Origin: a bacterium
Lineage (GTDB): Bacteria; Pseudomonadota; Gammaproteobacteria; Burkholderiales; Thiobacillaceae
DNA length: 64,000 bases
Assembly: GCA_009772925.1 (NCBI GenBank)
Contig: WOUQ01000005.1
Location: forward strand, 1 to 64,000
Reading direction: 5' to 3'
Shown: positions 22,216 to 38,832 of the stretch, one piece after another
Layout: every line of letters starts with the position of its first letter
Position numbering within the stretch: position 1 is the stretch's first letter
The notes under the pieces: model-generated
The model's input: only the letters and a program-made list of their open reading frames with translations
The model's database searches: none
What the model was told of the DNA's origin: nothing
Program-made: the position numbers and the translations under genes

Positions 22216-22333
22216 GGCTAGACCGCGTGCCTTAACCCCTGCTTAACATCGATTGCGCGTAGCGATTTCCCATCGACCATGAGCGCCGCCGACCGCCCGG
22301 CGGGCTCCGGAGCGGCTGTTGGGCCAGGGCCGT

Positions 22334-24508: not shown

Positions 24509-24810
24509 GCGAATCTCCCGAATTGAATCACCGGTTCCAGCCACCAGGCCACGTCACGCTTGGGAAAACGGTGTTTCAGGTGGGCCAGCAGGGCCTGGGC
24601 GTTGTCCGCCTCCAGGACGATCTGCACCAGGATGCGTTGCGTGCGCCCTCGCACCAGTTCCTGGGCGCTGAGGGTTTCGTGGTGGCGGCTGTAGCCTTCC
24701 GCCTTGAGGAGTGTGAAGCCGGAGGCCCACTCGGGGCGCTCCAGGAATTGTTCCACCAGTTCCTCCCCCAGATGCAGGGGCGCCGCCAGGGAAAGTTTCA
24801 CAAGAGTCAT
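24505..24810 (-). CDS. DUF3240 family protein (PII-like small protein)
   Basis: A 101-aa cytoplasmic protein starting MTLVKLSLAAPLHLGEELVEQFLE, with RTQRILVQIVLEADNAQALLAHL. DUF3240 proteins are predicted PII-like and recur in HME-RND operons; their function is not established. It lies between the RND pump gene (one base away) and the TolC-type gene (ATGA overlap), so its stoichiometry is tied to the pump. A role in sensing metal or controlling transport is inference only. Confidence 0.82.
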   Translation of the reverse strand: MTLVKLSLAAPLHLGEELVEQFLERPEWASGFTLLKAEGYSRHHETLSAQELVRGRTQRILVQIVLEADNAQALLAHLKHRFPKRDVAWWLEPVIQFGRFA

Positions 24811-24811
24811 G

Positions 24812-27800
24812 TCATTTCCCTTTAAGGATCAGGCGTCGGTAAAGAACCGGCAGCATGAGCAGGGTCAGGGCGGTGGAGCTGAACAGGCCACCCACCACGA
24901 CGATAGCCAGGGGCTTCTGAATCTCCGATCCTGGGCCGGTGGCCAGCAGCAGGGGGATGAGGCCGAAGGCGGTGATGCTGGCGGTCATGAGCACGGGCCG
25001 TAGCCGGCGCAAGGCCCCTTCCCGCACCACCCGGTCCGGCGCCATGCCCTGGCTAGCCAGCTGGTTGAAGTAGGTCACCAGCACCACGCCGTTGAGCACG
25101 GCGATGCCCAGAAGGGCGATGAAGCCCACCGAGGCCGGCACCGACATGTATTCCCCGGTGACGAACAGGGCAGCGATGCCCCCCACCAGGGCGAAGGGCA
25201 CCATGGCGATGACCAGGCCCGCCTGACGCAGGGATTTAAAGGTGGCGAACAGCAGGGCGAAGATCAGGGCCAAGGCCACGGGCACCACCACCGCCAGGCG
25301 GGCGGCGGCCCGCTGCTGGTTCTCGAACTGGCCGCCGTAGACCACGGAATAGCCATTGGGCAGCTTCACCTCCTGGGCGACCTTCGCCTTCACCTCCTCC
25401 ACGAAGCCCACCAGGTCGCGGCCGGCCACGTTGCACTGGATGGTGACATAGCGGGCCGCATTCTCACGGCTGACCGCCACGGGACCTTCGGTGCGCACCA
25501 GCCTGGCCACCTCCCGCAAGGGAATGGCGATGCCGTTTTCCGTGGGAATGCGCAGGGCCTCGAACAGGGCCGGGGATAGGCGCACGTCCTCCCCGGCGCG
25601 CAATACCAGGGGGGTGCGCTTCACGCCCTCCTGGACGGTGCCCAGCTGCAGCCCCTCCAGGTTGGCCCGCAGGAAAGCGGAAACGTCGTCCATGGACAGG
25701 CCGTAACGGCCGGCGGCCAGGCGGTCCACTTCCACCTTGAAGTACTGCACGCCGTCGTTCTTCAGGCTGAACACGTCCTGGGCCCCGGGCACCTTGCTCA
25801 ACAGCGTTTCCACCGAACCCGCCAGGGTGTTGAGGGTGTTGATGTCCGTGCCGAATACCTTGATGGCCAGGTCGCCCCGGGAGCCGGTGAGCATCTCCGA
25901 AACCCGCATGTCGATGGGCTGGGTGAAGCCGTAGGTCACGCCGGGGAAGTCGTTCATGACCTTACGGATTTCCTCCATGAGCCATTCCTTGTCCGGCTTG
26001 CGCCATTGTTCCCGGGGCTTCAGCACCAGGAAGGAGTCGGTCTGATTCAGCCCCATGGGGTCCAGGCCCAGCTCGTCTGAACCGGCCCGGGCCACCACGC
26101 CCGCCACTTCCGGCACCCGCTTGAGCAGGGCGCGCTGGACAGACTGGTCCAGGGCCAGGCTTTCCTCCAGGCTGATGGACGGCAGCTTTTCCAGCTGGAT
26201 CAGCAGGTCTCCCTCGTCCAGGGTGGGCATGAAGGACTTGCCTATGAGAGGGAACAGGCCTACGGCCACCACCAGCAGGACCACGGCGGAGGCCATCACG
26301 AGCTTGAAACGGCCCAGGGCGAAGTCCAGCAGGGGGGTATAGAGGCGCAACGCAGTGCGTACCAGCCAGGGTTCGCCATGCTGGCCTTCCTTCAGCAGCC
26401 AGGAAGCGATGACCGGAACCACCGTCAGGGCCAGCAGCATGGCCGAGCCCAGGGCGAAGACGATGGTCAGGGCCACGGGAATGAACAGCTTGCCTTCCAG
26501 GCCTTCCAGGGTGAGCAGGGGCAGGAACACGATCATGATGATCAGCACCCCGGCGGAAGTGGGGGTGGCCACCTCGCGTACCGCGCGGAACACCCGGTGC
26601 AACTTGGACTGCCCGCCCTGGTCATGGGCCAGGTGGGTGACCACGTTCTCCACCACCACCACCGCGCCGTCCACCAGCATGCCGATGGCGATGGCCAGTC
26701 CCCCAAGGCTCATGAGGTTGGCGGAGAGGCCGAACTGGCGCATGAGAAGGAAGGTGGCCAGGGCCGCCAGGGGAAGGCTGATGGCTACGGTCAGGGCCGC
26801 GCGCACGTTGCCCAGGAACAGGAACAACAGCAACAGCACCAGCAGGATAGCCTCGGCCAGGGCCTTGGTCACGGTGTTGACGGCCCGTTCCACCAGGGCG
26901 GAACGGTCGTAGAAGGCCTTTACCGTCACGCCCTTGGGCAGGGTGGGCTGGATCTCCGCCAGGCGTTGCTTCACCACCTTGACCAACTCCTGGGCGTTTG
27001 CACCGCGTAGGCCCAGGACCAGGCCTTCCACCGCCTCGCCCCGGCCGTCCTTGCTGACGCCACCGTAGCGGGTGAGGCTGCCCAGGCGCACCTCGGCCAC
27101 GTCGGCCACCCGCACCGGAATGCCGCCCACGTTCTTGACCACGATGTTGGCCAGGTCGTCCAGGCTCTTCACCGCCCCTTCCACCCTCACCAACCAGACT
27201 TCCTCGCCTTCCGTCAGGCGGCCGGCCCCGTCGTTGCGGTTGTTGGCCTGGATGGCGTCCCGCAACTGGGTCAGGGTGACGCCCCGGGCGCTCATGGCGG
27301 CGTTGTCCGGTACCACTTCAAAGGTCTTGACGTGGCCCCCCAGGGCGTTCACGTCGGCCACCCCGGGCAGGGTGCGCAGCTTGGGCCGGATCACCCAGTC
27401 CAGCAGGGCGCGGCGTTCGGCCAGGCTGAGGTGATCCCCTTCTACAGTGAACATGAACATTTCCGACAGGGGCGTAGTGATGGGAGCCAGGCCGCCACTC
27501 GTGCCCTCGGGCAGGTCCGCCAGCACGGCGTTGAGACGCTCGGCTACCTGCTGGCGGGCCCAGTAGATGTCGGTGCCATCCTCGAAATCGATGGTCACGT
27601 CCGTGAGTCCGTATTTGGAGGTGGAACGCAGGATGCGCTGCTTGGGAATGCCCAGCATCTCCATCTCGATGGGCGCCGCTATGCGGGTTTCCACCTCTTC
27701 CGGGGTCATGCCCGGGGCCTTGAGGATCAGTTTGACCTGGGTGGTGGAGACATCCGGAAAGGCGTCGATGGGCAACCCGCGCCAGGCCTGGATGCCCGCC

Positions 27801-27880
27801 GCCAACAGCAGCAGGGTCAGGCCGATGACCAGAAGGCGCTGGGTCAGGGAGAATTCAGTCAGCTTGCTTAACATGCTCAT
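24812..27880 (-). CDS. HME-family RND heavy-metal efflux pump (CzcA/CusA-like)
   Basis: A 1022-aa inner-membrane proton antiporter. Twelve helices in the RND pattern flank two large periplasmic loops; it starts MSMLSKLTEFSLTQRLLVIGLT, with GLPIDAFPDVSTTQVKLILKAPGMTPEEVE characteristic of HME pumps. The TM4 signature reads AIGMLVDGAVVVVEN. It keeps the VDGAVV aspartate but lacks the DFG of CzcA/CnrA and differs from the CusA version, so the metal (Zn, Cd, Co, Ni or Cu/Ag) cannot be assigned. It overlaps the adaptor gene by 4 bp. Confidence 0.93.
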   Translation of the reverse strand: MSMLSKLTEFSLTQRLLVIGLTLLLLAAGIQAWRGLPIDAFPDVSTTQVKLILKAPGMTPEEVETRIAAPIEMEMLGIPKQRILRSTSKYGLTDVTIDFEDGTDIYWARQQVAERLNAVLADLPEGTSGGLAPITTPLSEMFMFTVEGDHLSLAERRALLDWVIRPKLRTLPGVADVNALGGHVKTFEVVPDNAAMSARGVTLTQLRDAIQANNRNDGAGRLTEGEEVWLVRVEGAVKSLDDLANIVVKNVGGIPVRVADVAEVRLGSLTRYGGVSKDGRGEAVEGLVLGLRGANAQELVKVVKQRLAEIQPTLPKGVTVKAFYDRSALVERAVNTVTKALAEAILLVLLLLFLFLGNVRAALTVAISLPLAALATFLLMRQFGLSANLMSLGGLAIAIGMLVDGAVVVVENVVTHLAHDQGGQSKLHRVFRAVREVATPTSAGVLIIMIVFLPLLTLEGLEGKLFIPVALTIVFALGSAMLLALTVVPVIASWLLKEGQHGEPWLVRTALRLYTPLLDFALGRFKLVMASAVVLLVVAVGLFPLIGKSFMPTLDEGDLLIQLEKLPSISLEESLALDQSVQRALLKRVPEVAGVVARAGSDELGLDPMGLNQTDSFLVLKPREQWRKPDKEWLMEEIRKVMNDFPGVTYGFTQPIDMRVSEMLTGSRGDLAIKVFGTDINTLNTLAGSVETLLSKVPGAQDVFSLKNDGVQYFKVEVDRLAAGRYGLSMDDVSAFLRANLEGLQLGTVQEGVKRTPLVLRAGEDVRLSPALFEALRIPTENGIAIPLREVARLVRTEGPVAVSRENAARYVTIQCNVAGRDLVGFVEEVKAKVAQEVKLPNGYSVVYGGQFENQQRAAARLAVVVPVALALIFALLFATFKSLRQAGLVIAMVPFALVGGIAALFVTGEYMSVPASVGFIALLGIAVLNGVVLVTYFNQLASQGMAPDRVVREGALRRLRPVLMTASITAFGLIPLLLATGPGSEIQKPLAIVVVGGLFSSTALTLLMLPVLYRRLILKGK

Positions 27881-28989
27881 TCACCCTGCCAAGCGGCCTT
27901 CAGGGCGGCCACGCCTTCAATGGCGATCTGTTCCTCGCCGCTGAAGCGTCCGTCGATGGCCGCCCACTGGGCGGATTGACTCAAGACCTTTATCTGCTCG
28001 GGCTCAAAGCCGCCGGGGCGTTCCACGAACACCCAGTTCTGGCCTGCCTGGCGCACGATGGCCTTCACCGGCACGCGCCATTGTTTGTCGCCCGCCACGC
28101 CCTCGATGCGGGCGGATACGCTCTGGTTCAGGCGCAACAGGTTGCCGCGGTTGCTCACCCGGGCGCGGATGGGCACGGTCTGGGCCTCGCTCACGCTCCG
28201 GCCCACGGAGATCACCTGGCCGGTGGCGTCGGTGCCGGGCACGCTGACCTGCTGTCCGGTCTTCACCCGGGCCGCCATTTCCGCCGGGGCCTGGATCTCC
28301 AGCCAGAGGGGATCGAGCCGGCCCACCTTGAACAGCATGCCGGCCGTGTCCATGCGGGCGCCGATGACGGCACCCTGTTCCAGCACCACGCCACTGATGG
28401 GGCTGGCCAGGGCGATGCTGTCCGTCAGCCGTTCTCCCCGCTCCGCGGCCTTGATGGCACCCTGGTCAAGGCCAATGAGGCGCAACCAGGCACGGCGTTC
28501 GTTGAGTACGGCGGCGGCCTGGGCCTGGTTGGCCCGGCTGTTCTGCAGACGGGACTCGGGGATGATTCCTTCCTTGAACAGGGCTTCGTCGCGATGTACC
28601 GATTCCTGGGCCAAGCGGGCCTGGACTGCCGCCTGGGCAATGTCCTTTTGGGCTCCGATGAGGCTTTCACCCCGCAACACAGCCAGGGTCTGGCCTGTCT
28701 TCACTGTATCGCCTGCGGCCACCCTGACCTCGCTGACGATGCCCGCCATGGGGGCGGCCACCAGGCGTTCCTGGGTAGGCGGAATGGTGACCCGGGCGGG
28801 CAGGCCGACGGTGACGGCGCCGGCGTGGGCCACCAGGGGTGTGGTGCTCACGCGCAGGGCGGCGCGTTGGGCCGGGGTCAGGGAAATCAGCTTATCGCCG
28901 GCCTGGACGGGCCAGGCGAAGGTCATGGCTACGGCAAGGGCGACGGCAAGAAAGGGCAGGGGCAAAATATCTTGGCGAAAGGGGGGCAT
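27877..28989 (-). CDS. RND efflux periplasmic adaptor (CzcB/CusB-like)
   Basis: A 370-aa membrane-fusion protein. The N-terminal membrane or signal segment is LPLPFLAVALAVAMTFAWPVQAG. A lipoyl-like half follows (VAAPMAGIVSEVRVAAGDTVKTGQTLAVL), a helical hairpin (QAAVQARLAQESVHRDEALFKEGI), then the second lipoyl half (ASPISGVVLEQGAVIGARMDTAGMLFKVGRL) and beta-barrel domains. I see no His- or Met-rich N-terminal metal-binding stretch. The ATG at 28989 (MPPFRQD) is favoured because longer versions add sequence unlike a signal peptide. It follows the Gly-rich protein gene. Confidence 0.9.
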   Translation of the reverse strand: MPPFRQDILPLPFLAVALAVAMTFAWPVQAGDKLISLTPAQRAALRVSTTPLVAHAGAVTVGLPARVTIPPTQERLVAAPMAGIVSEVRVAAGDTVKTGQTLAVLRGESLIGAQKDIAQAAVQARLAQESVHRDEALFKEGIIPESRLQNSRANQAQAAAVLNERRAWLRLIGLDQGAIKAAERGERLTDSIALASPISGVVLEQGAVIGARMDTAGMLFKVGRLDPLWLEIQAPAEMAARVKTGQQVSVPGTDATGQVISVGRSVSEAQTVPIRARVSNRGNLLRLNQSVSARIEGVAGDKQWRVPVKAIVRQAGQNWVFVERPGGFEPEQIKVLSQSAQWAAIDGRFSGEEQIAIEGVAALKAAWQGE

Positions 28990-29074
28990 CGTGGAGGTGC
29001 AGTCAGGGTTATTGGACGTGAAAAGGGACGGTGCGTGGCCCGCGCCGTCCGTCGAGTTGAAAAGGCTGGTTGCG

Positions 29075-29401
29075 TCAGCGGTTGCGTCCTCCGCCCGGGC
29101 CCATGCCACCGCCGCCGGGGCCCCAGCCCGGCCCCATGCCGCCGCCCAGGGCGGGGGGCGCGTCCGGGAGACTCTTGCCCTGGGCCTTGGCTCGGGCCTG
29201 CATGGCCTGATGATGTTCTAGACGAATTTGCTCGCGTTCCAGGGCCGTGGTGGCGGTATGCATCCTGTTGCGGTATTCGATGCGTTCCTGGGCCGTCATC
29301 AATTGGCTGCCGTGGATGACCTCATCGGCCGGGTAAGCAGTCCCAGCACCCAGGGTGATGGCCATGGCCAGCGCCGTCATGATCAGTTTGGGGGCGCGCA
29401 T
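29075..29401 (-). CDS. Small exported glycine-rich protein of the metal-efflux operon
   Basis: A 108-aa protein, first gene of the efflux operon, with AAGGAG before the ATG. Signal peptide up to GAGTAYPA. The middle is a charged helix, LMTAQERIEYRNRMHTATTALEREQIRLEHHQAMQARAKAQ. The C-terminus is a flexible tail of GMGPGWGPGGGG-type residues. The helix resembles small periplasmic proteins often seen beside HME-RND genes. Three His and several Met suggest metal handling, but this is inferred from composition and position only. Confidence 0.8.
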   Translation of the reverse strand: MRAPKLIMTALAMAITLGAGTAYPADEVIHGSQLMTAQERIEYRNRMHTATTALEREQIRLEHHQAMQARAKAQGKSLPDAPPALGGGMGPGWGPGGGGMGPGGGRNR

Positions 29402-29516
29402 GATGTACTCCTTTCTAATGGGCTCAAGTCCCGGCCGCCCGGTCGGAACGCCCGTATCAACCTCGATTCCATTAGAGCAAGGGCATGTAACCGGCCTGCA
29501 ACCGCAAAATGGTGTT

Positions 29517-29565
29517 TTTGTAAGACGATGTGACAGAGCCTGGACCTGTTACATGGATTTACAAA
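29517..29565. promoter_or_regulatory. Divergent operator: 20-bp inverted repeat with tandem TGTAA half-sites
   Basis: The arm TTTGTAAGACGATGTGACAG (29517-29536) and the reverse complement of 29546-29565 (TTTGTAAATCCATGTAACAG) match at 16 of 20 positions across a 9-bp spacer. Each arm contains two direct half-sites, TGTAA and TGTGA/TGTAA, 10 bp apart, the arrangement used by OmpR-family dimers. It lies between the leftward efflux operon and the rightward response-regulator gene, so that regulator is the obvious binder. Confidence 0.7.
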
Positions 29566-29623
29566 TTGGCCCGTGGCGCTCTGGTGGCAGGAAAATAATC
29601 TCCATCAAAACAAGGACCGGACC

Positions 29624-30340
29624 ATGAAACAGGAGCATCTGCTGGTAGTGGACGACGACGCGGAACTGCGCGCACTGCTCCAGGACTACCTTGGGCAGGC
29701 AGGCTTCCGTGTCAACGCTGTGGCGGATGGCCGCCAGATGCTGCGTGCGCTGGAGGCGGCCCCCTACGACCTGGTGATCCTGGACGTGATGTTGCCCGGC
29801 GAGGATGGCCTGTCCCTGTGCCGCCGCCTGCGGACTGAGAGCCGCATCCCCATCCTCATGCTCACCGCCCGGGGAGACGAGGTGGACCGCATCGTCGGCC
29901 TTGAAATGGGGGCAGACGACTACCTGCCCAAGCCATTCAACCCCCGGGAGCTGCTGGCCCGGGTGAAGAGCGTCCTGCGGCGTGCAGGAAGTCTGCCGGA
30001 AAACCTGGCGGACGAGGATGTGCGCCGTTACCGTTTCGAGAGGTGGACGCTGGATACCCGGACCCGGCAGCTACTTTCCCCCACGGGCGTGGTGGTGGAT
30101 CTGTCCGGGGCGGAATACAAGTTGCTGCGCATTCTGTTGGAACATCCCAACCGGGTGCTCTCCCGGGACCAGATGCTGGAGTTCACCCAGGGCAGGGAAG
30201 CCAACGTATTCGACCGGGCCATCGATGTGCAGATCGGCCGCCTGCGTCGCAAGCTGGGAGATGACCCCCGTGAGCCGTGCCTGATCAAGACCGTGCGTAA
30301 CGAGGGCTACGTGCTGTCCGTGCCCGTGGAGCGGCAGTGA
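29624..30340 (+). CDS. OmpR-family response regulator of the metal-efflux locus
   Basis: A 238-aa DNA-binding regulator. The receiver domain has the acidic pair VDDDAE, the phospho-acceptor in LVILDVMLPGEDG (Asp near 54), MLTARGDE and the DDYLPKPFNPREL lysine. The winged-helix domain covers about 135-235 (LLSPTGVVVDLSGAEYKLL, RVLSRDQML, RLRRKLGDDPREPCLIKTVRNEGY). The start at 29624 has AAGGA upstream. It is followed after 7 bp by its kinase gene and divergent from the efflux genes it probably controls. Confidence 0.93.
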   Translation: MKQEHLLVVDDDAELRALLQDYLGQAGFRVNAVADGRQMLRALEAAPYDLVILDVMLPGEDGLSLCRRLRTESRIPILMLTARGDEVDRIVGLEMGADDYLPKPFNPRELLARVKSVLRRAGSLPENLADEDVRRYRFERWTLDTRTRQLLSPTGVVVDLSGAEYKLLRILLEHPNRVLSRDQMLEFTQGREANVFDRAIDVQIGRLRRKLGDDPREPCLIKTVRNEGYVLSVPVERQ

Positions 30341-30347
30341 GTAGGCC

Positions 30348-31658
30348 ATGAAGCGTATCGATTCCATCTATATGCGCGTGGCCGGGGTGTTGCTTATCGG
30401 CCTGCTTGCGGCCCAGTGGATATCCGAGCAGCTCTACCAAGAGGAGCGGGAACGGCTGCTTTCCCACCTTATCGCCGGCCCCCTGGTGCAGCGGCTGGGG
30501 GCGATAGCAGACCAGCTGGACCGGACCCCGGCGGCGGAGCGCCCGGCCCTGCTGCGGGCGTTTACTTCGCCACGCATCACCTTCAGCCTGGCAGACCGGC
30601 CGGCGGAGGGTCTCCACGATGGCGCCCTGGATAAGCTCCAGGCACGGCTGCCCCATGAGATGGGCGTTCTGCGCCGAGTCACGGTGGCCAGCGGGCCCCA
30701 TGAAACCGCAGACGGGGTGCCCATCCTGACCCGCATCTCTTTCGTGCTTCGCGATGGGCAGATCATCCTGGCCACCCACCATTTCCCCGGCGACGAGCAG
30801 GTGGTCCCCAGCCGCCACTTGCCCCTGTTGACGGGATATTTCCTGGCCATCGCCCTGCTGGCCCTGGTGGCTATGCGCTGGGCGGTGGAGCCCCTGCGCC
30901 GCATGGCGGTGGCGGCTGACGCCCTGGGACGGGACCTCAGCGGCCCACCCCTGCCGGAAACCGGTCCCCGAGAGGTACGCCAGGCTGCCCACGCCTTCAA
31001 CACCATGCAAAAACGCCTGGCCAGTTATCTGGATGACCGCCTGCGCATCCTTGCCGCCGTATCGCACGATCTCAAGACGCCCATCACCCGACTTAAGCTG
31101 CGCGCCGAGATGCTTGCGGACGAGGGTCAGCGGGGAAAATTCCTGCGGGACTTGGAAGACATGGAGACCATGATCGGCGTCACCCTTGATTTCCTGCGGG
31201 GCGAGTCCGACAAGGAATCCGGCGTGCCCCTGGACATCAACGCCCTGCTATCCACCCTGAGGGATGACATGGCCGCCTTGGGCGAGCAGGTGGAAGTGGA
31301 GGGCGAGGCCGCCGAGCCTCTCCAGGCCAGGCCTCAGGCCCTCAAGCGCTGTCTCTCCAACCTGATCGAGAACGCGGTGCGGTACGGAGGCAATGCCCGG
31401 ATCAGGGTGGAAGACAGCGCCACGGAGTTGACCTTGCATATTGATGACGATGGGCCGGGTATTCCCGATGACAAGCTGGAACAGATGTTCCAGCCCTTCC
31501 GCCGGGGCGAGGACTCCCGCAACCGGGCCACGGGCGGCGTGGGCCTGGGCCTGGCCATAGCGCGCAACCTGGCCCGAGCCCATGGTGGCGAGGTGACTTT
31601 GTCCAACCGCCGAGAAGGCGGTTTACGGGTTACTGTGGTTCTGCCCCGGGAGACCTGA
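30348..31658 (+). CDS. Sensor histidine kinase of the metal-efflux locus
   Basis: A 436-aa membrane kinase of EnvZ-like layout: TM1 near residues 8-28, a periplasmic sensor of about 130 residues, TM2 near 160-180 (LLTGYFLAIALLALVAM), HAMP, a HisKA domain with the phospho-His in VSHDLKTPITRLKLRAEML, and HATPase_c boxes LSNLIENAVRYG, DDDGPGIPD and GVGLGLAIARNLARAHGG. The periplasmic loop (EQVVPSRHLPL near its end) shows no metal cluster I recognise. It is operonic with the response regulator. Confidence 0.93.
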   Translation: MKRIDSIYMRVAGVLLIGLLAAQWISEQLYQEERERLLSHLIAGPLVQRLGAIADQLDRTPAAERPALLRAFTSPRITFSLADRPAEGLHDGALDKLQARLPHEMGVLRRVTVASGPHETADGVPILTRISFVLRDGQIILATHHFPGDEQVVPSRHLPLLTGYFLAIALLALVAMRWAVEPLRRMAVAADALGRDLSGPPLPETGPREVRQAAHAFNTMQKRLASYLDDRLRILAAVSHDLKTPITRLKLRAEMLADEGQRGKFLRDLEDMETMIGVTLDFLRGESDKESGVPLDINALLSTLRDDMAALGEQVEVEGEAAEPLQARPQALKRCLSNLIENAVRYGGNARIRVEDSATELTLHIDDDGPGIPDDKLEQMFQPFRRGEDSRNRATGGVGLGLAIARNLARAHGGEVTLSNRREGGLRVTVVLPRET

Positions 31659-31680: not shown

Positions 31681-31814
31681 GCGCCTCGTAGTCGCGGACA
31701 CAAGCGAAGCGCTTCGCCATGCCAACGTCCAGCAACACGTCGTGTCGTCTCAGAACATGATTTGCGTCGAGAGCAGCGGCCGGTATGGCAGGGGACTCCT
31801 ACGCGGGTAGCGCA

Positions 31815-31912
31815 CCACCTTCACCGTTATCCGCTCTAAAGCCTCGCCAAAGCTTCGCCTCAGATTTCCTTAAGCTTTCCGCTTCAAGCTGTGGTCGTGT
31901 TCATCCCACACA
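31815..31912 (+). repeat. 98-bp duplicated leader, copy 1 (before the octaheme operon)
   Basis: Matches 35188-35285 at 89 of 98 positions without gaps and stands in the same place, 21 bp before a cytochrome c start codon. It contains CTTAAGC, a 5-nt loop and GCTTCAAG, which can fold as a short stem. Two of the nine differences fall in that loop while the arms are unchanged. It presumably carries the promoter or an operator for the downstream cytochrome operon. Confidence 0.85.
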
Positions 31913-31933: not shown

Positions 31934-32413
31934 ATGAAACGCAAATTGCTGGCCGTCACCCTCTGCGCAACCATGATTGCCCCAGCCATTGCTCAAGAGG
32001 AAATCACTTACCGACAACACATTGGCCCCATGCTGAAGAAGTACTGCAACGAGTGCCACGCCGCACCCGATGCTCCCACCATGGCTGACTTCAAGCTGGA
32101 CGAAGAAAAGTGGAAAAAGGCCAAGGTTGGCGCACGCTTGGACACTTACGAACACCTGGTGATCCTGGTGGCCTACCCGTCAACCGGAGCGATCATGCGT
32201 CGCCTTGACGATGGCACCAGCCAATACGCCAATGGCAAGCCAGGCAACATGTACAAGTACCTGGGGAAAACCGACGAAGAGCGCCAGGCCAACCTGGCCA
32301 TCATGAAAGCGTGGGTAGGCGAAGGTGGCTGGAACCTGAACCGCATGAAAGCCCGCGGAGACGTGCCTGCCCTGACCAAAGAGCAGTTCGACAAGCTCGA
32401 ACTCAAGTACTGA
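31934..32413 (+). CDS. Periplasmic monoheme cytochrome c
   Basis: A 159-aa protein with signal peptide MKRKLLAVTLCATMIAPAIAQ and one heme site, KKYCNECHAAPDAPTM. The rest (DFKLDEEKWKKAKVGARLDTYEHLVILVAYPSTGAIMRRLDD, GKPGNMYKYLG, MKAWVGEGGWNLNRM) resembles small cytochromes annotated only as hypothetical or cytochrome c; a Met in GNMYKYLG may be the sixth ligand. It is the first gene of a four-gene electron-transfer operon and stands directly behind the duplicated leader. Confidence 0.9.
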   Translation: MKRKLLAVTLCATMIAPAIAQEEITYRQHIGPMLKKYCNECHAAPDAPTMADFKLDEEKWKKAKVGARLDTYEHLVILVAYPSTGAIMRRLDDGTSQYANGKPGNMYKYLGKTDEERQANLAIMKAWVGEGGWNLNRMKARGDVPALTKEQFDKLELKY

Positions 32414-32440
32414 ACAAATTGCCAGGGAATCCCCTGCGTC

Positions 32441-33709
32441 ATGACCTCTCTCGGCTTGCTGCTTTGGATTGTTCTTGGCATCGCTTTGCAGGTGGGGCTG
32501 TTCCTGGGCATCAGTTTCTGGCAGCACTGGCAGTCTTACAGCCGTCTCAAGCACGGACAGCCCGAAGCAGACGAATCACTACCCGCGGCCAGCCTGCCAA
32601 AAGCGGAAGTGGCTGGCTGGTCGGGCTTTCGCCCTTTCAAGGTTGCCCAGCGCGTTATAGAGGACAGCGCAGGGCAAATCTGTTCTTTCTACCTGGAGCC
32701 CGAAGATAGGCAAGCTCTTCCGTCATACCAGCCCGGCCAGTTCCTGACCTTCCGTTTGGACGTTCCCAAGGCCGACGGCAGCGGTACCGAGCAAATCACC
32801 CGCTGCTACTCCCTGTCGGATGCCCCCCAGTCCGGCCATTATCGTGTTTCGATCAAGCGGGTGCCGCCCCCGCCGAACCGCGACCTTCCCCCGGGGCGTT
32901 CCTCGAACTTCTTCCACGACCGTGTCCAGGTCGGTACGACGTTGCAAGTCCGCGCCCCCTCGGGCCACTTCTATCTCGAACCGGGCGGCAGCCCCATCGT
33001 CCTGATCGCCGGCGGCATCGGCATCACGCCCATGCTCAGCATGCTCAACTGGTGCCAATCGCACCAACCCGAGCGCGAAGTCTGGTTCTTCTATGGCGTG
33101 CGCAACAGCAGGGAAACCGCTTTTGCAGCGCATCTGGGCGCAATCGCCGCGGCCAACCCCAAAGTCCATCTGCGCTTGTGCTTCAGCGACCCGCTGCCGG
33201 AAGATCGACTGGGCCGAGACTTCCACCACCACGGTCGCGTAGATGTGCATCTGTTCCGCATGGAATTGCCGCTGAAGCCCTACCACTACTACATCTGCGG
33301 GCCCACACCGATGATGGAATCCCTAGTGCCGGCACTGGACGACTGGGGCGTGCCCGATGCGCACATCCACTTCGAAGCCTTCGGTCCCGCTTCGATCAAG
33401 CGTCGCAAACCGGAGACCGCTGCTACCGGGAGTGCCATTGCAACCCCTGCAAGCGACATCACGGTGACCTTCGCCAAATCAGGCAAACAGGCCCGGTGGT
33501 CAGCGCAGTCGGGCAGCCTGCTGGAATTCGCAGAATCCCAGGGGATTGCCATCGATTCGGGCTGCCGCGCAGGCGGCTGCGGCACCTGCCAGACGACGAT
33601 ACGTTCCGGCGAAGTGTCCTATCAGCAATCTCCGGACTTCGATCCCGAACCCGGCACCTGCCTGATGTGCGTCAGCATCCCCAAGACCCATGTGACGCTG
33701 GAGGCCTGA
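32441..33709 (+). CDS. Membrane-anchored FAD/NAD(P)H reductase with C-terminal 2Fe-2S ferredoxin domain
   Basis: A 422-aa flavoprotein. One N-terminal helix (LLLWIVLGIALQVGLFLGISFW) is followed by positive residues, which places the rest in the cytoplasm. An FAD-binding ferredoxin-reductase domain (TRCYSLSDAPQSGHYRVSIKRV), an NAD(P)-binding domain (IAGGIGITPMLSML, CGPTPMMESLVPAL) and a plant-type 2Fe-2S domain (DSGCRAGGCGTCQTTI, then CLMC) follow. The domain order resembles phenol and benzoate dioxygenase reductases or HCP reductase. In this operon it would move electrons from NAD(P)H to the membrane cytochrome b next door. Confidence 0.92.
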   Translation: MTSLGLLLWIVLGIALQVGLFLGISFWQHWQSYSRLKHGQPEADESLPAASLPKAEVAGWSGFRPFKVAQRVIEDSAGQICSFYLEPEDRQALPSYQPGQFLTFRLDVPKADGSGTEQITRCYSLSDAPQSGHYRVSIKRVPPPPNRDLPPGRSSNFFHDRVQVGTTLQVRAPSGHFYLEPGGSPIVLIAGGIGITPMLSMLNWCQSHQPEREVWFFYGVRNSRETAFAAHLGAIAAANPKVHLRLCFSDPLPEDRLGRDFHHHGRVDVHLFRMELPLKPYHYYICGPTPMMESLVPALDDWGVPDAHIHFEAFGPASIKRRKPETAATGSAIATPASDITVTFAKSGKQARWSAQSGSLLEFAESQGIAIDSGCRAGGCGTCQTTIRSGEVSYQQSPDFDPEPGTCLMCVSIPKTHVTLEA

Positions 33710-33710
33710 C

Positions 33711-34301
33711 ATGACATCACCCGGCACCGCTTCCCTCTGGCTCAACCACATCCTGCCCTTCACGCTGTTGGTGACCCTGCTCGGGGTGGCGACGGTCCTC
33801 GGCGACTACCTGCTGCATCGTCTCGATATGGTCTGGGTGGGCCGCTATCTCGGCATCCCCGGCACCTTGCTGATCATCGGATCGCTGACCTATTCCCTGC
33901 GCAAGCGGAAAGTCATCGCGTCCGGGAACGTCAAATCCTGGCTCAGCATGCACGAGCTCGGCACCTGGCTGGGTTCCTGGATGGTGCTGCTTCATGCCGG
34001 GGTCCATTTCAATGCCATCCTGCCCTGGCTGGCCACAATCGCCATGGGGGTCAATGTCATCAGCGGCATGGTCGGCAAGATGCTGCTGAAACGCTCGCGC
34101 GAACATGTCCAGGCCCGGCGCGAACAGTATCAGTTGCGCGGGTTGCCCAAGGCGGAGGTCGAGCAGACGGTGTTCTGGGAATCGGTAACTTTTGACGCCA
34201 TGGCCAAGTGGCGCAAGGTCCACATACCGATCTTCATTGCCTTTGCCGTGCTGGCCCTGGGGCACATCGTCAGCATCTTCCTGTTCTGGGGGTGGCGATG
34301 A
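33711..34301 (+). CDS. Small four-helix membrane protein, probable b-type cytochrome
   Basis: A 196-aa integral membrane protein with about four helices. Histidines sit in or near the helices: SMHELGTWLGSWMVLLHAGVHFNAILPWL, KVHIPIFIAFAVLALGHIVSIFLF. This spacing is what a di-heme b561-like bundle would show, though no family signature is certain. A 30-residue polar loop (RSREHVQARREQYQLRGLPKAEVEQTVF) separates helices 3 and 4. It starts 2 bp after the reductase gene and ends in an ATGA overlap with the octaheme cytochrome gene, so it likely carries electrons between the two. Confidence 0.75.
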   Translation: MTSPGTASLWLNHILPFTLLVTLLGVATVLGDYLLHRLDMVWVGRYLGIPGTLLIIGSLTYSLRKRKVIASGNVKSWLSMHELGTWLGSWMVLLHAGVHFNAILPWLATIAMGVNVISGMVGKMLLKRSREHVQARREQYQLRGLPKAEVEQTVFWESVTFDAMAKWRKVHIPIFIAFAVLALGHIVSIFLFWGWR

Positions 34302-35047
34302 GCAAGACCCTCAAGTTCATTCTGGCGGCCAACCTGATCGTCCTGGCCATCCTGGCCTTTGCCTATCCCCATTTGATGGTCGGCCCCGGCAAGCTGATTC
34401 CCGGCCACAGCAAGCTCGAAACAGATTGCTTTGTCTGCCACGCACCGTTTCTCGGGACCACGACCGAACGCTGTATCTCCTGTCACAAGCCCGAAGCAAT
34501 CGGCAAGCTCACGACTCTTGGGCAGCCGATCCAGAAACCGCTCACCAGCACACCGTTCCATCAGAAGCTCGTCAAGCAGGATTGCCTTGCGTGCCACAGT
34601 GATCACGCCGGAGTGAAACGCTTCCGTAGCGCAGGCCGGTTCAACCACGCCTTGCTCCAGGCGGATGCCCGCAAGGAATGTCAGTCCTGCCACAAGTCAC
34701 CCAAAGATTCGCTCCATCAGCAGATCACCGGAAATTGCAGCCAGTGCCATAGCCAGGAGAAATGGGTACCCGCGAACTTCGATCACGGTAAGTATTTCGT
34801 TCTGGACCGTGATCACAACGTGAAATGCGCAACTTGTCACGTGCGTAACGACTACAACCGCTACACCTGCTACGGCTGCCATGAGCACTCCCCCGAGAAG
34901 ATCCGGCGCGAGCATATCGAAGAAGGAATTCGCGACTTCAAGAACTGCGTTGAATGCCACCGAAGCGCCGATGAGCACGACATTCGGATGCCGGGGCGCG
35001 GGAGAGTGCGCGAACAAGGACAAGGCGTGGCGCGGGATAACGACTGA
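34298..35047 (+). CDS. Octaheme c-type cytochrome, membrane-anchored
   Basis: A 249-aa multiheme protein with one N-terminal helix (KTLKFILAANLIVLAILAFAYP) likely kept as an anchor. Eight CxxCH sites are visible in order: CFVCH, CISCH, CLACH, CQSCH, CSQCH, CATCH, CYGCH, CVECH. Spaced histidines (FHQKL, NHALLQ, LHQQI, FDHGKYF, DRDHNVK, HEHSPEKI, EEHI) fit bis-His ligation in a class III/c3-like fold. The start at 34298 overlaps the cytochrome b stop. As the operon's final gene it is the likely periplasmic electron outlet. The redox partner is unknown. Confidence 0.92.
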   Translation: MSKTLKFILAANLIVLAILAFAYPHLMVGPGKLIPGHSKLETDCFVCHAPFLGTTTERCISCHKPEAIGKLTTLGQPIQKPLTSTPFHQKLVKQDCLACHSDHAGVKRFRSAGRFNHALLQADARKECQSCHKSPKDSLHQQITGNCSQCHSQEKWVPANFDHGKYFVLDRDHNVKCATCHVRNDYNRYTCYGCHEHSPEKIRREHIEEGIRDFKNCVECHRSADEHDIRMPGRGRVREQGQGVARDND

Positions 35048-35187
35048 CGGCAATCAAAACACACCCAGCCTGTATTGCCATGCCGGGATTTCCATCGGCT
35101 GGCGCGAACACCTGCATACGCCGCCTTGGTCATGGCAAACGACACTGGATGCCATCACACGACTTGACTTGCCTGGCTCCCGGCGGG

Positions 35188-35285
35188 CCACCTTCACCGT
35201 TATTCGGTCTTAAGCCTCGCCAAAGCTTCACCTCAGATTTCCTTAAGCTCCCCGCTTCAAGCTGTGGCCATGTTCACCCCACACA
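35188..35285 (+). repeat. 98-bp duplicated leader, copy 2 (before the SHP operon)
   Basis: Ungapped, 91% identical to 31815-31912, and placed 11 bp before the SHP start codon. The same stem arms CTTAAGC and GCTTCAAG are kept. The rest of the 35048-35296 gap holds no gene I can support. Confidence 0.85.
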
Positions 35286-35296
35286 GGAGCATGACC

Positions 35297-35701
35297 ATGA
35301 AAGCACTGATTCCCGTATTGATTGGCCTATTCGCCGTGACGGCGCAGGCCGCCACGCCCAACGAAATTCTCGCCGGCTATCGCGCCGAGGCGGCGAAGAA
35401 CAACCCCCGTTACCAGTCATCGGCGGAGCTCGGCGCGCAGTTGTACAGGCACTCGTTCGGCGTGTCCGCCAAGATGCCGTCGTGCAGCAGCTGCCACGGC
35501 GACGATCCCGCCCGTGGCGGCAGTCATGTGGTGACCGGCAAGGCGATCCAGCCCCTGGCGCCCGCCGCCAATGCGGAGCGCTTCAGCGACCCGGCCAAGG
35601 TGGAAAAGTGGTTCCGCCGCAACTGCGGCGAAGTGCTCGGCCGGGAATGCAGCGCCACCGAAAAGGCCGATTTCATCACCTTCGTGATGCGGGGGCGCTG
35701 A
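35297..35701 (+). CDS. shp: SHP-type (DUF1924) monoheme cytochrome c
   Basis: A 134-aa periplasmic cytochrome with signal peptide MKALIPVLIGLFAVTAQAA and the heme site PSCSSCHGDD. It matches the sphaeroides heme protein family: a conserved Asn (Asn109 of the precursor, about 90 of the mature form, in WFRRNC) and a Cys pair (Cys110, Cys118 in RRNCGEVLGREC). In Rhodobacter sphaeroides SHP an Asn is the sixth ligand and leaves on reduction, allowing O2 or NO binding. The second of two nearby ATGs is chosen because AGGAG is seven bases before it. First gene of an SHP-DHC-b561-two-component operon. Confidence 0.9.
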   Translation: MKALIPVLIGLFAVTAQAATPNEILAGYRAEAAKNNPRYQSSAELGAQLYRHSFGVSAKMPSCSSCHGDDPARGGSHVVTGKAIQPLAPAANAERFSDPAKVEKWFRRNCGEVLGRECSATEKADFITFVMRGR

Positions 35702-35702
35702 G

Positions 35703-36197
35703 ATGAACGCCGCGCATCTGCTCGCTCCTCTGTTTTCCATGTTCATGGTGTGCACGGCACAGGCCGACGATCTGCGCCTGCCTGCCGGCGCGCCGCCGGC
35801 CTTCCAGAGCGAATGCGGCGCCTGCCACCTGGCTTTCCCGCCGCGACTGCTGGTGGCCGAGGACTGGCGTCGCGTGATGGCCGGTCTCGACCGGCACTAC
35901 GGTGACAACGCCAGTCTCGACGAGCCGACGCGCCGCGCCATCGAGGCGTATCTGGTCGAAAACGCCGGCAAACCGAAAAAGCTCGGCCCCAGCGGCACGG
36001 CGGCGCCGGGCGAAGCGCCGCGTTTGACCGCCACCGCCTGGTTCAAGCGCAAGCACCACGAGGTGCCGCCGGCTTACTGGCGACATGCCGAAGTGCGCAG
36101 CCCGGCCAACTGCGCCGCCTGTCACAAACAGGCCGCAAGCGGCAGTTACCGCGAGCGCGAGATCGTCATGCCCGGCGGCCGTCGCTGGCAAGATTGA
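35703..36197 (+). CDS. Diheme cytochrome c (DHC)
   Basis: A 164-aa periplasmic cytochrome with signal peptide ending MVCTAQADD and two heme sites, SECGACHLAFPP near residue 38 and ANCAACHKQA near 139. LVAEDWRRVMAGLDRHYGDNASLD and the SPANCAACH ending are typical of the DHC family that serves as electron partner of SHP. It starts one base after the SHP stop codon and is followed 10 bp later by cytochrome b561, giving the expected chain b561 to DHC to SHP. Confidence 0.92.
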   Translation: MNAAHLLAPLFSMFMVCTAQADDLRLPAGAPPAFQSECGACHLAFPPRLLVAEDWRRVMAGLDRHYGDNASLDEPTRRAIEAYLVENAGKPKKLGPSGTAAPGEAPRLTATAWFKRKHHEVPPAYWRHAEVRSPANCAACHKQAASGSYREREIVMPGGRRWQD

Positions 36198-36207
36198 GGA
36201 GCGGATG

Positions 36208-36813
36208 ATGAACAGGATTCTGGTCTGGGACTGGCCGGTGCGCATCGGCCATTGGCTGCTGGCGGGCGCCTTCGTCCTTGCCTGGCTCACCGGCGACAGC
36301 GAAACCTGGCGCCTGGTGCATGTCTGGGCCGGCGGCGCCGTCGTCGGCGTGGTGTTGTTCCGCCTGCTCTGGGGCCTGGTGGGCACGCGCTACGCGCGCT
36401 TCGCCAGCTTCGTGCGCGGCCCCGGCGCGGTGAAGGCGTATTTCCTCGGGTTGTTCAGGCACACGCTCGCTGAACAGCCCGGCCACAATCCCGCCGGCGG
36501 CTGGGCCATCGTCGCACTGCTGTCGCTGGGCCTGCTCAGCGGCGCCAGCGGCTGGCTGATCTATCAGGACATAGGCGGGGAGTGGCTGGAGGAACTGCAC
36601 GAAACGTTGGCCTCGACCATGCTGGCGATGGTCATCGTTCATGTCATCGGCGTGCTGACCGGCAGTCTGGCGCATGGCGAAAACCTGGTGCGCGCCATGT
36701 TCACCGGCATGAAGCGCGGTGATGCCGACGCCGCCATCGCCGGCGCGCGGCCACTCGCCGTACCCCTGCTGCTGACCTGCGCGGCGACCTGCGCCTGGTG
36801 GCTGGCCCGGTAG
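36208..36813 (+). CDS. Cytochrome b561 family membrane protein
   Basis: A 201-aa four-helix di-heme b cytochrome. MNRILVWDWPVRIGHWLLAGAFVLAWLTGD and HVWAGGAVVGVVLFRLLWGLVGTRYARF carry the first heme histidines; ELHETLASTMLAMVIVHVIGVLTGSLAHGENL carries the others. It would take electrons from quinol and reduce the diheme cytochrome. The ATG at 36208 is preferred over 36205 from its distance to GAGGAG. Next comes the response regulator gene. Confidence 0.92.
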   Translation: MNRILVWDWPVRIGHWLLAGAFVLAWLTGDSETWRLVHVWAGGAVVGVVLFRLLWGLVGTRYARFASFVRGPGAVKAYFLGLFRHTLAEQPGHNPAGGWAIVALLSLGLLSGASGWLIYQDIGGEWLEELHETLASTMLAMVIVHVIGVLTGSLAHGENLVRAMFTGMKRGDADAAIAGARPLAVPLLLTCAATCAWWLAR

Positions 36814-36826
36814 AATTCCGCCCATC

Positions 36827-37486
36827 ATGCGCATCCTGCTCGTCGAAGACGATCCGCACCTGGGCAACGCGCTCATGGTCGGCCTGCGCCAGCACGGCCA
36901 TGCCGTGGACTGGCTGCGCGACGGCGTGGCCGCCGATCTCGCCCTGAAGAGCGAGCCTTTCGATCTGCTGGTGCTGGATCTCGGCTTGCCGCGCCTCGAT
37001 GGCGTCGAGGTGCTGCGGCGGCTGCGCGGGCGCGGCCAGGTCTTGCCGGTGCTGATCCTCACCGCGCGCGATGCCACCGGCGACAAGGTAATCGGGCTGG
37101 ATGCCGGCGCCGACGATTACCTGGTCAAGCCCATCGATCTCGACGAACTCGCCGCGCGCGCCCGCGCCCTGGCCCGGCGCGCGGCCGGCCATGCCAGCCC
37201 ATGCCTGGACCTCGGCGAACTGTCCATCGATCCCGCCGCGCGCCAGGCGACGCTGCGCGGCGCGCTGCTGGAATTGACCGCGCGCGAGTTTTCCCTGCTG
37301 CTGACGCTGGCGGAAAACGTCGGTCGCGTGCTGACCCGCGCCCAGCTCGAAGCCTCGCTCTATGGCTGGCGCGACGAACCGGACAGCAACGCGCTGGAAG
37401 TGCACATCCACAATCTGCGCAAGAAGCTGGGCGGTGAACGCATCAAGACCCTGCGCGGCATCGGCTACGGCATGCCGAAGCCATGA
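36827..37486 (+). CDS. OmpR-family response regulator of the SHP cluster
   Basis: A 219-aa QseB/PmrA-like regulator: receiver MRILLVEDDPHLGNALMVGL, phospho-acceptor in LLVLDLGLPRLDG, LTARDATGDKVIGLDAGADDYLVKPIDLDEL; winged helix with LELTAREFSLLLTLAENVGRVLTRAQLEASLY and HIHNLRKKLGGERIKTLRGIGY. It overlaps the kinase gene by 4 bp and follows b561 by 13 bp. It is therefore part of the cytochrome operon and may autoregulate it through the duplicated leader. Confidence 0.93.
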   Translation: MRILLVEDDPHLGNALMVGLRQHGHAVDWLRDGVAADLALKSEPFDLLVLDLGLPRLDGVEVLRRLRGRGQVLPVLILTARDATGDKVIGLDAGADDYLVKPIDLDELAARARALARRAAGHASPCLDLGELSIDPAARQATLRGALLELTAREFSLLLTLAENVGRVLTRAQLEASLYGWRDEPDSNALEVHIHNLRKKLGGERIKTLRGIGYGMPKP

Positions 37487-38832
37487 CCACGCGCTGGTTT
37501 TCCCTGCGCCGGCGTTTGTTCGCGCTGCTGCTGGGTGGTGTCACCGCCGGCTGGCTGGTCACCATGGTGTTCTCCTATGTCGATGCCCACCACGAAATCG
37601 ACGAGTTGTTCGATGCCCAACTGGCACAGGCCGCCCAGACCCTGCTTGCGCTCGCCAGCGAATATGACGATGACGACGATGTCGTCGAACTGACGGGGGA
37701 CGGCCACCCCTACCAGAAGAAACTGGTGTTCCAGCTCTGGGATGACGAGGGTCGCCTGCTGTTGCGCTCACGTGATGCGCCGACCCGACGGCTGACCGAC
37801 GCGCTGGGTTACTCGGAACGGGTGGACGCCCGGGGGCAACGCTGGCTGTACTACAGCCAGTGGGATGCCCAACGGCAATTGCGTGTCGAGGTCGGCGAGA
37901 ACCATGCGGTGCGCGAGGAGCTTTCGCGCCACATTGCCATGCGCCTGCTGGCCCCCGCCGTGCTGGGCCTGCCGCTGCTCGGTCTGTGGGTATGGTTCGC
38001 CATCGGACGCGGCATCGCCCCCATTGCCGCGGTCACCGATCAGGTCAGCCGGCGCGCGCCGGAACGCCTCGATGCGCTGGCACCGGAACGCGCGCCGGAA
38101 GAGATCCGTCCCCTGCTCGAAGCGCTCAACGCGCTGTTCGCGCGCGTCGAACACACCCTCGACCACGAGCGCCGCTTCACCGCCGACGCCGCCCATGAAT
38201 TGCGCACCCCGCTGGCGGCGCTGGCGGCGCAGGCGCAGGTGGCGCTGCGGGCGGATGACGCGCGGCAACGCGAGCAGGCCCTGGCGCGGATCGTCGCCGG
38301 CAGCCAGCGCGCCGGCCGGCTGGTCGGGCAGTTGCTGACCCTGGCGCGGCTGGACCCGGCAAGCCGGCCCGCGCTGCAGGCGGTTGCGCTCGATGTCCTC
38401 GCCACCGAGGCATGCGCGGAGCTCGGCCGGATCGCCCTGGAGCGGCATATCAGCCTGGAACTGGAGGCGCCCGAAGCCGTGGTGGTGGACGCCAACGCCG
38501 ACCTGCTGCGCGTCCTGCTGCGCAACCTGATCGACAACGCCCTGCGCTACACGCCGGAGGGCGGCAGGGTCGAAGTGGCGGTGAGCATGACGGATGCGGG
38601 CGCCAGCCTGGTGGTCGGCGATGACGGACCCGGCATCCCGGAAGGCGAACGTGACGCCGCCCTGCTGCGCTTCCATCGCCTGGCCGGGCAGGAAGTCGAA
38701 GGCAGCGGTCTCGGCCTGTCCATCGTCGCGCGCATCGCCGAGTTGCACGCGGCGCGGCTGACGTTGGGCGACGGCCCCGCCGGCAAGGGATTGACGGTAC
38801 GCGTGCTGTTTCCCCGGCCAGCGACGCGCTAA
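37483..38832 (+). CDS. QseC-like sensor histidine kinase of the SHP cluster
   Basis: A 449-aa membrane kinase: TM1 near 10-30 (LFALLLGGVTAGWLVTMVFSY), a periplasmic region of about 130 residues including the acidic stretch EYDDDDDVVELTGDG, TM2 near 158-175, HAMP, HisKA with DAAHELRTPLAALAAQAQVAL, and HATPase_c boxes LIDNALRYTPEGG, VGDDGPGIPEGE and GSGLGLSIVARIAELH. It is the last gene of the SHP operon. The signal it senses (redox, NO or metal) is not evident. Confidence 0.93.
   Translation: MTTRWFSLRRRLFALLLGGVTAGWLVTMVFSYVDAHHEIDELFDAQLAQAAQTLLALASEYDDDDDVVELTGDGHPYQKKLVFQLWDDEGRLLLRSRDAPTRRLTDALGYSERVDARGQRWLYYSQWDAQRQLRVEVGENHAVREELSRHIAMRLLAPAVLGLPLLGLWVWFAIGRGIAPIAAVTDQVSRRAPERLDALAPERAPEEIRPLLEALNALFARVEHTLDHERRFTADAAHELRTPLAALAAQAQVALRADDARQREQALARIVAGSQRAGRLVGQLLTLARLDPASRPALQAVALDVLATEACAELGRIALERHISLELEAPEAVVVDANADLLRVLLRNLIDNALRYTPEGGRVEVAVSMTDAGASLVVGDDGPGIPEGERDAALLRFHRLAGQEVEGSGLGLSIVARIAELHAARLTLGDGPAGKGLTVRVLFPRPATR

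Follow-up and report, generated by a model that had tools for sequence, protein, structure and literature searches.

A conserved gene trio for a reductase, a predicted diheme cytochrome b and an octaheme cytochrome c in a Thiobacillaceae genome, and its probable role as an NAD(P)H-driven transmembrane conduit

Introduction

How do electrons from the cytoplasm reach multiheme cytochromes c in the periplasm? They are usually drawn from quinol, through proteins of the CymA, NapC and Cbc types. A cluster of redox genes in a Thiobacillaceae bacterium raises the question of whether NAD(P)H may also supply them by a dedicated route. The cluster lies in a 64,000-nt stretch of contig WOUQ01000005.1, hereafter the window, and all coordinates given for it are window positions. 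Four genes, all on the + strand, encode a PccH-family monoheme cytochrome c (gene A), a membrane-anchored FNR-type reductase (B), a 196-aa membrane protein (C) and an octaheme cytochrome c (D); proteins are called here by the letters of their genes. A preliminary description had read the four as one system that could pass electrons from NAD(P)H to periplasmic multiheme carriers without quinone. Its gene positions and spacings (27 bp between A and B, 1 bp between B and C, and a 4-bp overlap, ATGA, of C and D) were all reproduced here.

The present analysis indicates that B-C-D is probably a real, conserved, NAD(P)H-driven transmembrane conduit of three genes. Its sequence-level basis consists of gene order, motifs, topology signals, a shared promoter repeat and the enrichment of a regulatory box; from these we infer that C binds heme b, that the three proteins form a complex, that NAD(P)H is the donor and that electrons move outward, as well as the sink and the inducing signal.

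Results

Relatives were collected from a genome collection with a profile of C, and the best 80 of 306 loci were kept, so that the set is biased to close relatives. The order B-C-D is kept in 80/80 of them (B of L068 and D of L039 are cut by a contig end, and B of L112 is read in two pieces), which indicates that the gene arrangement is not due to chance. A failure of the order to recur in other genomes had been named beforehand as a ground for abandoning the proposal. The junction of C and D is a 4-bp overlap in all 80 loci, and B and C are separated by 0 bp in 59 of 79. Hosts include Rhodocyclaceae, Accumulibacter, Dechloromonas, Aromatoleum, Zoogloea, Thiobacillus, Gallionellaceae and Rhodoferax, with Dechloromonas agitata and Aromatoleum toluvorans as isolates. 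A class-wide draw found close relatives of C in 8 of 274 genomes, own genome included; with the latter left out, D was present in 7/7 and B in 6/7, B-C-D being complete in 6/7. Order-wide and phylum-wide draws gave 12/399 and 23/299 C-positive genomes, again with the own genome in both. Among 13 regions examined from these two draws, C-D was intact in 12, one having fragments of C and D alone, and B-C-D was complete in 8 of the 12. The distribution of C is patchy, because it was found in none of five genomes of the host's genus-mates; a plasmid collection searched with C gave no match. The loci with C-D and without the reductase are L124, L125, L126, L133 and L036; C-D is preceded by ArsR and ArsP permease genes in L124 and by a rhodanese gene in L126.

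Among Pfam and NCBIfam models, protein C had no match at E<=0.1, and it has no credible relative in the PDB (best matches E>=0.7). Two HX13H pairs (H81/H95 and H171/H185) and an SGxxG motif are present in 81/81 sequences, and six histidines, including H36 and H99, are invariant in 87/87. The longer pattern WX3HX13H occurs twice in the window protein (W77 and W167); in the family W167 is found in 87/87 and W77 in 23/87, with L or Y in 64. An AlphaFold2 (AF2) model of C has five long helices, with a mean predicted local distance difference test (pLDDT) score of 77 and a predicted template modelling (pTM) score of 0.64. Basic stretches, a conserved RKRK at 64-67 and residues 123-147, suggest cytoplasmic loops, which would place H81 and H171 on the cytoplasmic side of the membrane, and their partners H95 and H185 near the periplasm. 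H36 and H99, which belong to neither pair, are probably also oriented towards the periplasm. It is likely that C binds two b hemes, as paired HX13H ligands are typical of diheme transmembrane cytochromes b; the preliminary description had named a lack of heme in C as a ground for refutation.

The similarity of C to known families is otherwise limited. None of 87 family members matched PF01794 (Ferric_reduct) at E<=1, and a one-by-one scan matched DUF4405 weakly in 24/87 (best E=7e-4) and Ni_hydr_CYTB in 2. Weak matches of C, with 25-38% identity, fell mostly in frames of ~300 aa. At 22 such loci (L009-L030), open reading frame selection gave a protein with two WX3HX13H motifs and SGxxG in 16, and a multiheme gene (4-15 CxxCH) adjoins it in 16/16. 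One of these multi-CxxCH neighbors was typed as FHA plus cytochrome c3, and eight other neighbors comprised four pyridine-nucleotide reductases with 4Fe-4S, two cyclic-nucleotide-binding 4Fe-4S proteins and two CycH-type TPR proteins; three of the four reductases are encoded on the other strand. An hhalign comparison indicated homology of C to the ~300-aa HX13H proteins, with 99.2% probability and E=3e-19 over 88 columns that include the first HX13H and SGXXG only. The compared set was 15 sequences found with C as query, which may be PCC3/PCC4 inner-membrane proteins proper, discussed below. The variety of reductases near distant relatives suggests that B is perhaps one of several cytoplasmic donors, and such donors may be interchangeable for one diheme-b/multiheme-c unit.

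A Pfam search of B found FAD_binding_6, NAD_binding_1 and a C-terminal Fer2 domain, and among solved structures it is closest to flavohemoproteins (reductase part) and NqrF. Motifs for FAD are kept in 77/80 sequences, for NAD in 74/80, of the CGPxPM type in 64/80 and for 2Fe-2S in 79/80. Window B has a single hydrophobic segment, located near its N-terminus, and the residues after it carry a net positive charge; the helix is found in 79/80, and positive charge is greater after it than before it in 67/80. This bias implies that the FAD, NAD and 2Fe-2S domains should be cytoplasmic. A periplasmic reductase, which would have contradicted the conduit, is thus not what the predicted topology indicates. 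Subunit F of Na+-NQR and reductases of the PaaE/BenC type perform the same FAD/NAD and 2Fe-2S chemistry; B differs from them in carrying its 2Fe-2S domain C-terminally. NqrF is likewise anchored in the membrane. No Nqr partners were found among the adjacent window genes typed.

A recount of D gave eight CxxCH motifs behind an N-terminal hydrophobic helix, as described earlier. Eight are present in 78/80 relatives, the exceptions being a truncated copy (2) and one with ten, and nine invariant histidines lie outside CxxCH in 80/80 aligned sequences. Nine additional histidines for eight hemes would fit bis-His electron transfer rather than catalysis. In the Pfam search D matched class III/c7 cytochrome models, and as a profile it matched a sixteen-heme cytochrome (E=1.4e-4). 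The maturation of c-type cytochromes is periplasmic, and the hemes of D must therefore be periplasmic. Frames with ten CxxCH were seen in the position of D in L059 (8573-9469), L128, L129 and L131.

The four-gene scope of the preliminary description did not hold for gene A. It is a clear member of the PccH family (PF22297, E=1.7e-58, 196.9 bits against a cut-off of 24.4) and aligns with PDB 4rlr (E=1.6e-35). It was found at only 2/80 loci, for which a conserved four-gene unit was rejected: L038, where C is 99% identical to window C, and L109, where gene A lies ~1 kb after D. Of 13 C-positive genomes tested, the own genome among them, 2 contain PccH, as does 1 of 5 C-negative genus-mates. Gene A is an accessory outside the conserved unit. 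In Geobacter sulfurreducens, PccH (GSU3274), of which gene A is a homolog, was reported necessary for electron uptake from a cathode (PMC9300713).

The PccH-BCD operon and the neighboring SHP (sphaeroides heme protein) operon are both preceded by a 103-bp direct repeat, 89% identical between its copies. Its 18-bp core, at <=3 mismatches, occurs at only these two places in the window, with 0 expected. Copy 1 contains at 31859 a site with 2 mismatches to TTAAG-N6-TTAAG, equivalent to the box YTTAAG-N5-YTTAAG that was scanned within 200 bp upstream of B in the relatives. At <=2 mismatches the box lies 5' of B in 40/77 loci, compared with 2.57 in dinucleotide shuffles and with 21/540 control regions 5' of other genes; once redundant loci are removed, the count is 31/65 against 1.87 expected. 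The species are related, so the Fisher value for this enrichment overstates independence. At <=1 mismatch the N5 spacing was found in 25/77 and six other spacings in 0 or 1 each. Upstream of SHP the box was present in 7/7 loci where a QseC-type kinase is encoded nearby, compared with 1/15 where none is. A scan for sigma-70 promoters gave 0 sites where 0.8 were expected. A perfect TTAAG-N6-TTAAG box was also noted at 22231-22246 (-), directly 5' of a gene for a sulfatase-family membrane protein (20260-22215, -).

Both operons are probably controlled by one response regulator of the PmrA/QseB/BqsR kind, judging from the shared repeat and box. In Pseudomonas aeruginosa, TTAAG-N6-TTAAG serves as the operator for BqsR, which is Fe(II)-responsive (PMC4682146). 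A QseBC homolog of Haemophilus responds to Fe(II) (PMC12737762), and in Escherichia coli the Fe(III)-activated PmrB is an activator of QseB as well (PMC10597456). On the grounds of this operator identity and of the iron-responsive QseBC and PmrB, an iron- or cation-stress setting is proposed for both operons. They would share with the BqsRS, QseBC and PmrAB regulons the operator (that of BqsR) and Fe(II)- or Fe(III)-responsive members, and would differ in that the candidate targets are electron-transfer operons.

The features of the locus are collected in Table 1.

Table 1. Features of the conduit locus and the adjoining operon in the window
Feature	Position	Strand	Remarks
Gene A, PccH-family monoheme cytochrome c	31934..32413	+	PF22297, PDB 4rlr; accessory
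Gene B, membrane-anchored FNR-type reductase	32441..33709	+	FAD, NAD(P) and C-terminal plant-type 2Fe-2S
Gene C, 196-aa membrane protein, predicted diheme cytochrome b	33711..34301	+	Two HX13H pairs, AF2 model
Gene D, N-terminally anchored octaheme cytochrome c, class III/c7-like	34298..35047	+	8 CxxCH
Promoter-region repeat copy 1, 103 bp, directly 5' of gene A	31810..31912	+	
Promoter-region repeat copy 2, 103 bp, directly 5' of SHP operon	35183..35285	+	89% identical
SHP (DUF1924), neighboring operon	35297..35701	+	PF09086 E=6.1e-36
DHC, diheme cytochrome c	35703..36197	+	PF09626 E=2.2e-35
Cytochrome b561-type subunit, SHP operon	36205..36813	+	PF01292 E=4.5e-24
OmpR-type response regulator	36827..37486	+	Best NCBIfam models PmrA and QseB, both below cut-off
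QseC-like sensor kinase with 2CSK_N domain	37483..38832	+	QseC model below cut-off

Next to the module stand SHP, diheme cytochrome c (DHC), a cytochrome b and a regulator. DUF1924 we take to be SHP, and the gene set fits the SHP operon of Meyer and co-workers discussed below. A second SHP (DUF1924) gene lies elsewhere in the own genome (G000:C4:3963-4235). Among the 80 loci, clustering of their genes placed SHP in 22, DHC in 19 and a gene with Ferric_reduct, FAD and NAD domains, similar to NADPH oxidases (NOX), in 15, of which 13 also carry SHP; the clusters were typed by single members, one SHP and one NOX-like (L053), with DHC typed in the window. The NOX-like loci (L041, L047-L055, L058, L078, L087, L092 and L114) may contain a second entry for NAD(P)H beside SHP/DHC. 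In 26 of the 66 loci that extend far enough, D is followed within 2 kb by an exporter gene of the cation diffusion facilitator (CDF) family in the same orientation. One CDF protein from the retained loci matched MntE best, below cut-off, and two from the class-wide draw were Cdf31-like (above cut-off) and FieF-like (below cut-off).

On the other side, the window carries a CusA/CzcA-family RND (resistance-nodulation-division) metal efflux system with adaptor and outer-membrane factor on the - strand, followed by an EnvZ/OmpR-like pair (29573-31658, +) that adjoins the conduit operon, the whole spanning 23249-31658. A TerB/DUF533-like gene is located near or after D in 12/80 loci (L048-L052, L054, L056, L063, L087, L097, L113 and L114; L050 typed). 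An outer-membrane conduit in the window cluster was considered and rejected, as the neighboring genes that were typed consist of two-component regulators and the SHP operon and include no porin; this check covers the window flanks, and the relatives received no systematic porin search.

Discussion

We think it reasonably likely that B, C and D form one membrane complex that carries electrons of cytoplasmic NAD(P)H to the periplasm, in the manner of a split NOX-like conduit. The FAD of B would oxidize NAD(P)H and pass single electrons on through 2Fe-2S to the cytoplasmic-side heme b of C (H81/H171), from where they would move to the periplasmic-side heme b (H95/H185) and then to D. Octaheme D could in turn reduce small periplasmic carriers, PccH in this organism and possibly also the DHC and SHP of the next operon. 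The module would thereby resemble a NOX/MsrQ-type conduit in which the reductase is a separate subunit and the acceptor a multiheme wire. Flow along NAD(P)H, FAD, 2Fe-2S, the two hemes b and octaheme c would plausibly be downhill and aided by the membrane potential, in line with established bioenergetics. A response regulator similar to PmrA, QseB or BqsR would switch on both operons under cation or iron stress. The conduit proposed in the preliminary description thus retains the backing of conserved order, topology signals and heme-ligand pattern, and loses its four-gene scope: B-C-D is the part that recurs.

The individual parts have precedents. By its motifs and profile, C belongs with the HX13H inner-membrane proteins (IMPs) of He et al. 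(2017; PMC5566968), who described conserved short proteins of this kind next to orphan multiheme cytochromes. In most cases these were accompanied by a further redox protein and lacked a porin, a setting like that of the window module. The short proteins and the IMPs of the porin-cytochrome conduits PCC3 and PCC4 have the same five helices and two HX13H pairs, the latter also SGXXG, next to a multiheme cytochrome c, and C presents the same combination of pairs and SGXXG throughout its aligned sequences. In those systems, however, the IMP gene is downstream of the cytochrome, and PCC3/PCC4 were modelled as possibly quinone-active; an FNR/2Fe-2S reductase is not named in the available text. A second set of relatives by design is formed by NOX, ferric reductase domain (FRD) proteins and MsrQ with Fre, which share bis-His pairs on two helices, again found in C in 81/81, an FNR-type FAD/NAD(P)H module and the outward transfer of single electrons; for MsrQ, Fre is considered a possible separate donor, and SpNOX is able to reduce cytochrome c (PMC5676040). 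C differs from them in having five helices (AF2) rather than six and no match to PF01794, and the module differs in the extra 2Fe-2S domain of B and the octaheme acceptor D. Flavinylation systems with MsrQ-like proteins likewise combine a cytosolic donor, often with an NAD-binding domain, a transmembrane heme protein and an extracytosolic carrier (PMC8238504). Their carrier is a flavinylated protein instead of an octaheme cytochrome c, and their membrane part is PF01794. The SHP-DHC-cytochrome b operon with QseC-like regulators, linked to CzcD in Allochromatium, Thermochromatium, Lutiella and Thauera, adjoins the module here as a distinct operon, and the available text on it contains neither the reductase nor the octaheme protein (Meyer et al., 2010; PMC2909971).

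A literature search with many-term queries, covering few subscription journals, found no paper whose title or opening abstract lines describe the reductase-IMP-octaheme trio, nor does the available text of PMC10734462 contain a match to it. The earlier statement that the combination could not be matched to a named system is fair, but the architecture of C and D has precedents in the PCC3/PCC4 IMPs and the short proteins (PMC5566968). The parts are of known kinds, while for their pairing and for the apparent stress-type control no description was found.

Several observations weigh against the conduit and its proposed control. C matches no Ferric_reduct/NOX model, so that the likeness to NOX rests on the ligand pattern, and the AF2 model of D is poor (pLDDT 52). 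The window boxes each carry 2 mismatches, 37/77 B upstreams have no box at that threshold, and among distant upstreams 12/17 lack it and 5/17 have it at 2 mismatches. Other spacings at 2 mismatches give 5 to 20 of 77, which makes the N5 spacing specific only for the better sites, and the box of B is not more common near a QseC-type kinase (4/12 with, 36/65 without). The distant loci with C-D and without B (4/12 in the order- and phylum-wide draws and 1/7 in the class-wide draw) suggest that electrons might also be supplied by quinol or a soluble reductase. They would suit a scheme in which C takes electrons from, or exchanges them with, the (mena)quinol pool and D distributes them, while B plays an accessory part by supplying electrons to those b hemes or withdrawing them; that related IMPs may be quinone-active (He et al., 2017) points the same way. 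Yet B is present, and nearly abuts C, in the 80 closest relatives, and we regard such a quinol link as quite unlikely. In view of the C-D pairs and the possibly quinone-active relatives, a quinone bypass is a possibility rather than an established property.

The destination and direction of the electrons can also be read differently. If B-C-D served as a dedicated donor to SHP, which reacts with O2 and NO, the promoter repeat common to both operons would be explained, as would the presence of SHP and DHC at about a quarter of the loci and of a NOX-like cluster gene at 13 of the 22 SHP loci. The interaction of D with DHC is presumed, however, and SHP was found in only 6 of 12 C-positive genomes (107/399 overall, own genome in both counts). 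Its absence from half of them led us to reject SHP as a general sink, and makes this donor role doubtful. Homology of gene A to a protein needed for cathode uptake, together with hosts such as Gallionellaceae and Thiobacillus, would accord with an inward conduit that leads electrons from PccH, an electrode or Fe(II) through D and C to B or a cytoplasmic acceptor. That reading is very improbable in view of the rarity of PccH among loci and C-positive genomes, and because NAD+ reduction would be uphill, against the membrane potential. Finally, the genes might be co-transcribed and serve separate roles, and the literature searched contained no biochemistry of these proteins; this is highly unlikely, given that the sampled Pseudomonadota loci preserve the overlap, the gene order and the heme ligands.

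In its most far-reaching form, our proposal makes B-C-D a widespread "split NOX", through which electrons of NAD(P)H would be released directly to an octaheme hub in the periplasm with no quinone involved. Such a module would act as an effector arm of an iron/cation-stress response of the PmrA/QseB/BqsR type, together with cation exporters and, in the organism studied here, with SHP as an oxygen-binding protein, and would be one case of an architecture with interchangeable dehydrogenases. In this full form it is a tentative possibility, and we advance it as such.

If the proposal is correct, a dedicated route from NAD(P)H to multiheme cytochromes would add a quinone-independent exit for electrons in many environmental Betaproteobacteria and their kin. 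It would also provide a role for otherwise orphan octaheme cytochromes, for example in Rhodocyclaceae and Gallionellaceae, and a compact three-gene part for bioelectrochemistry. In this regard, the operator common to both operons makes the physiology testable, through induction by Fe(II), Fe(III) or another cation.

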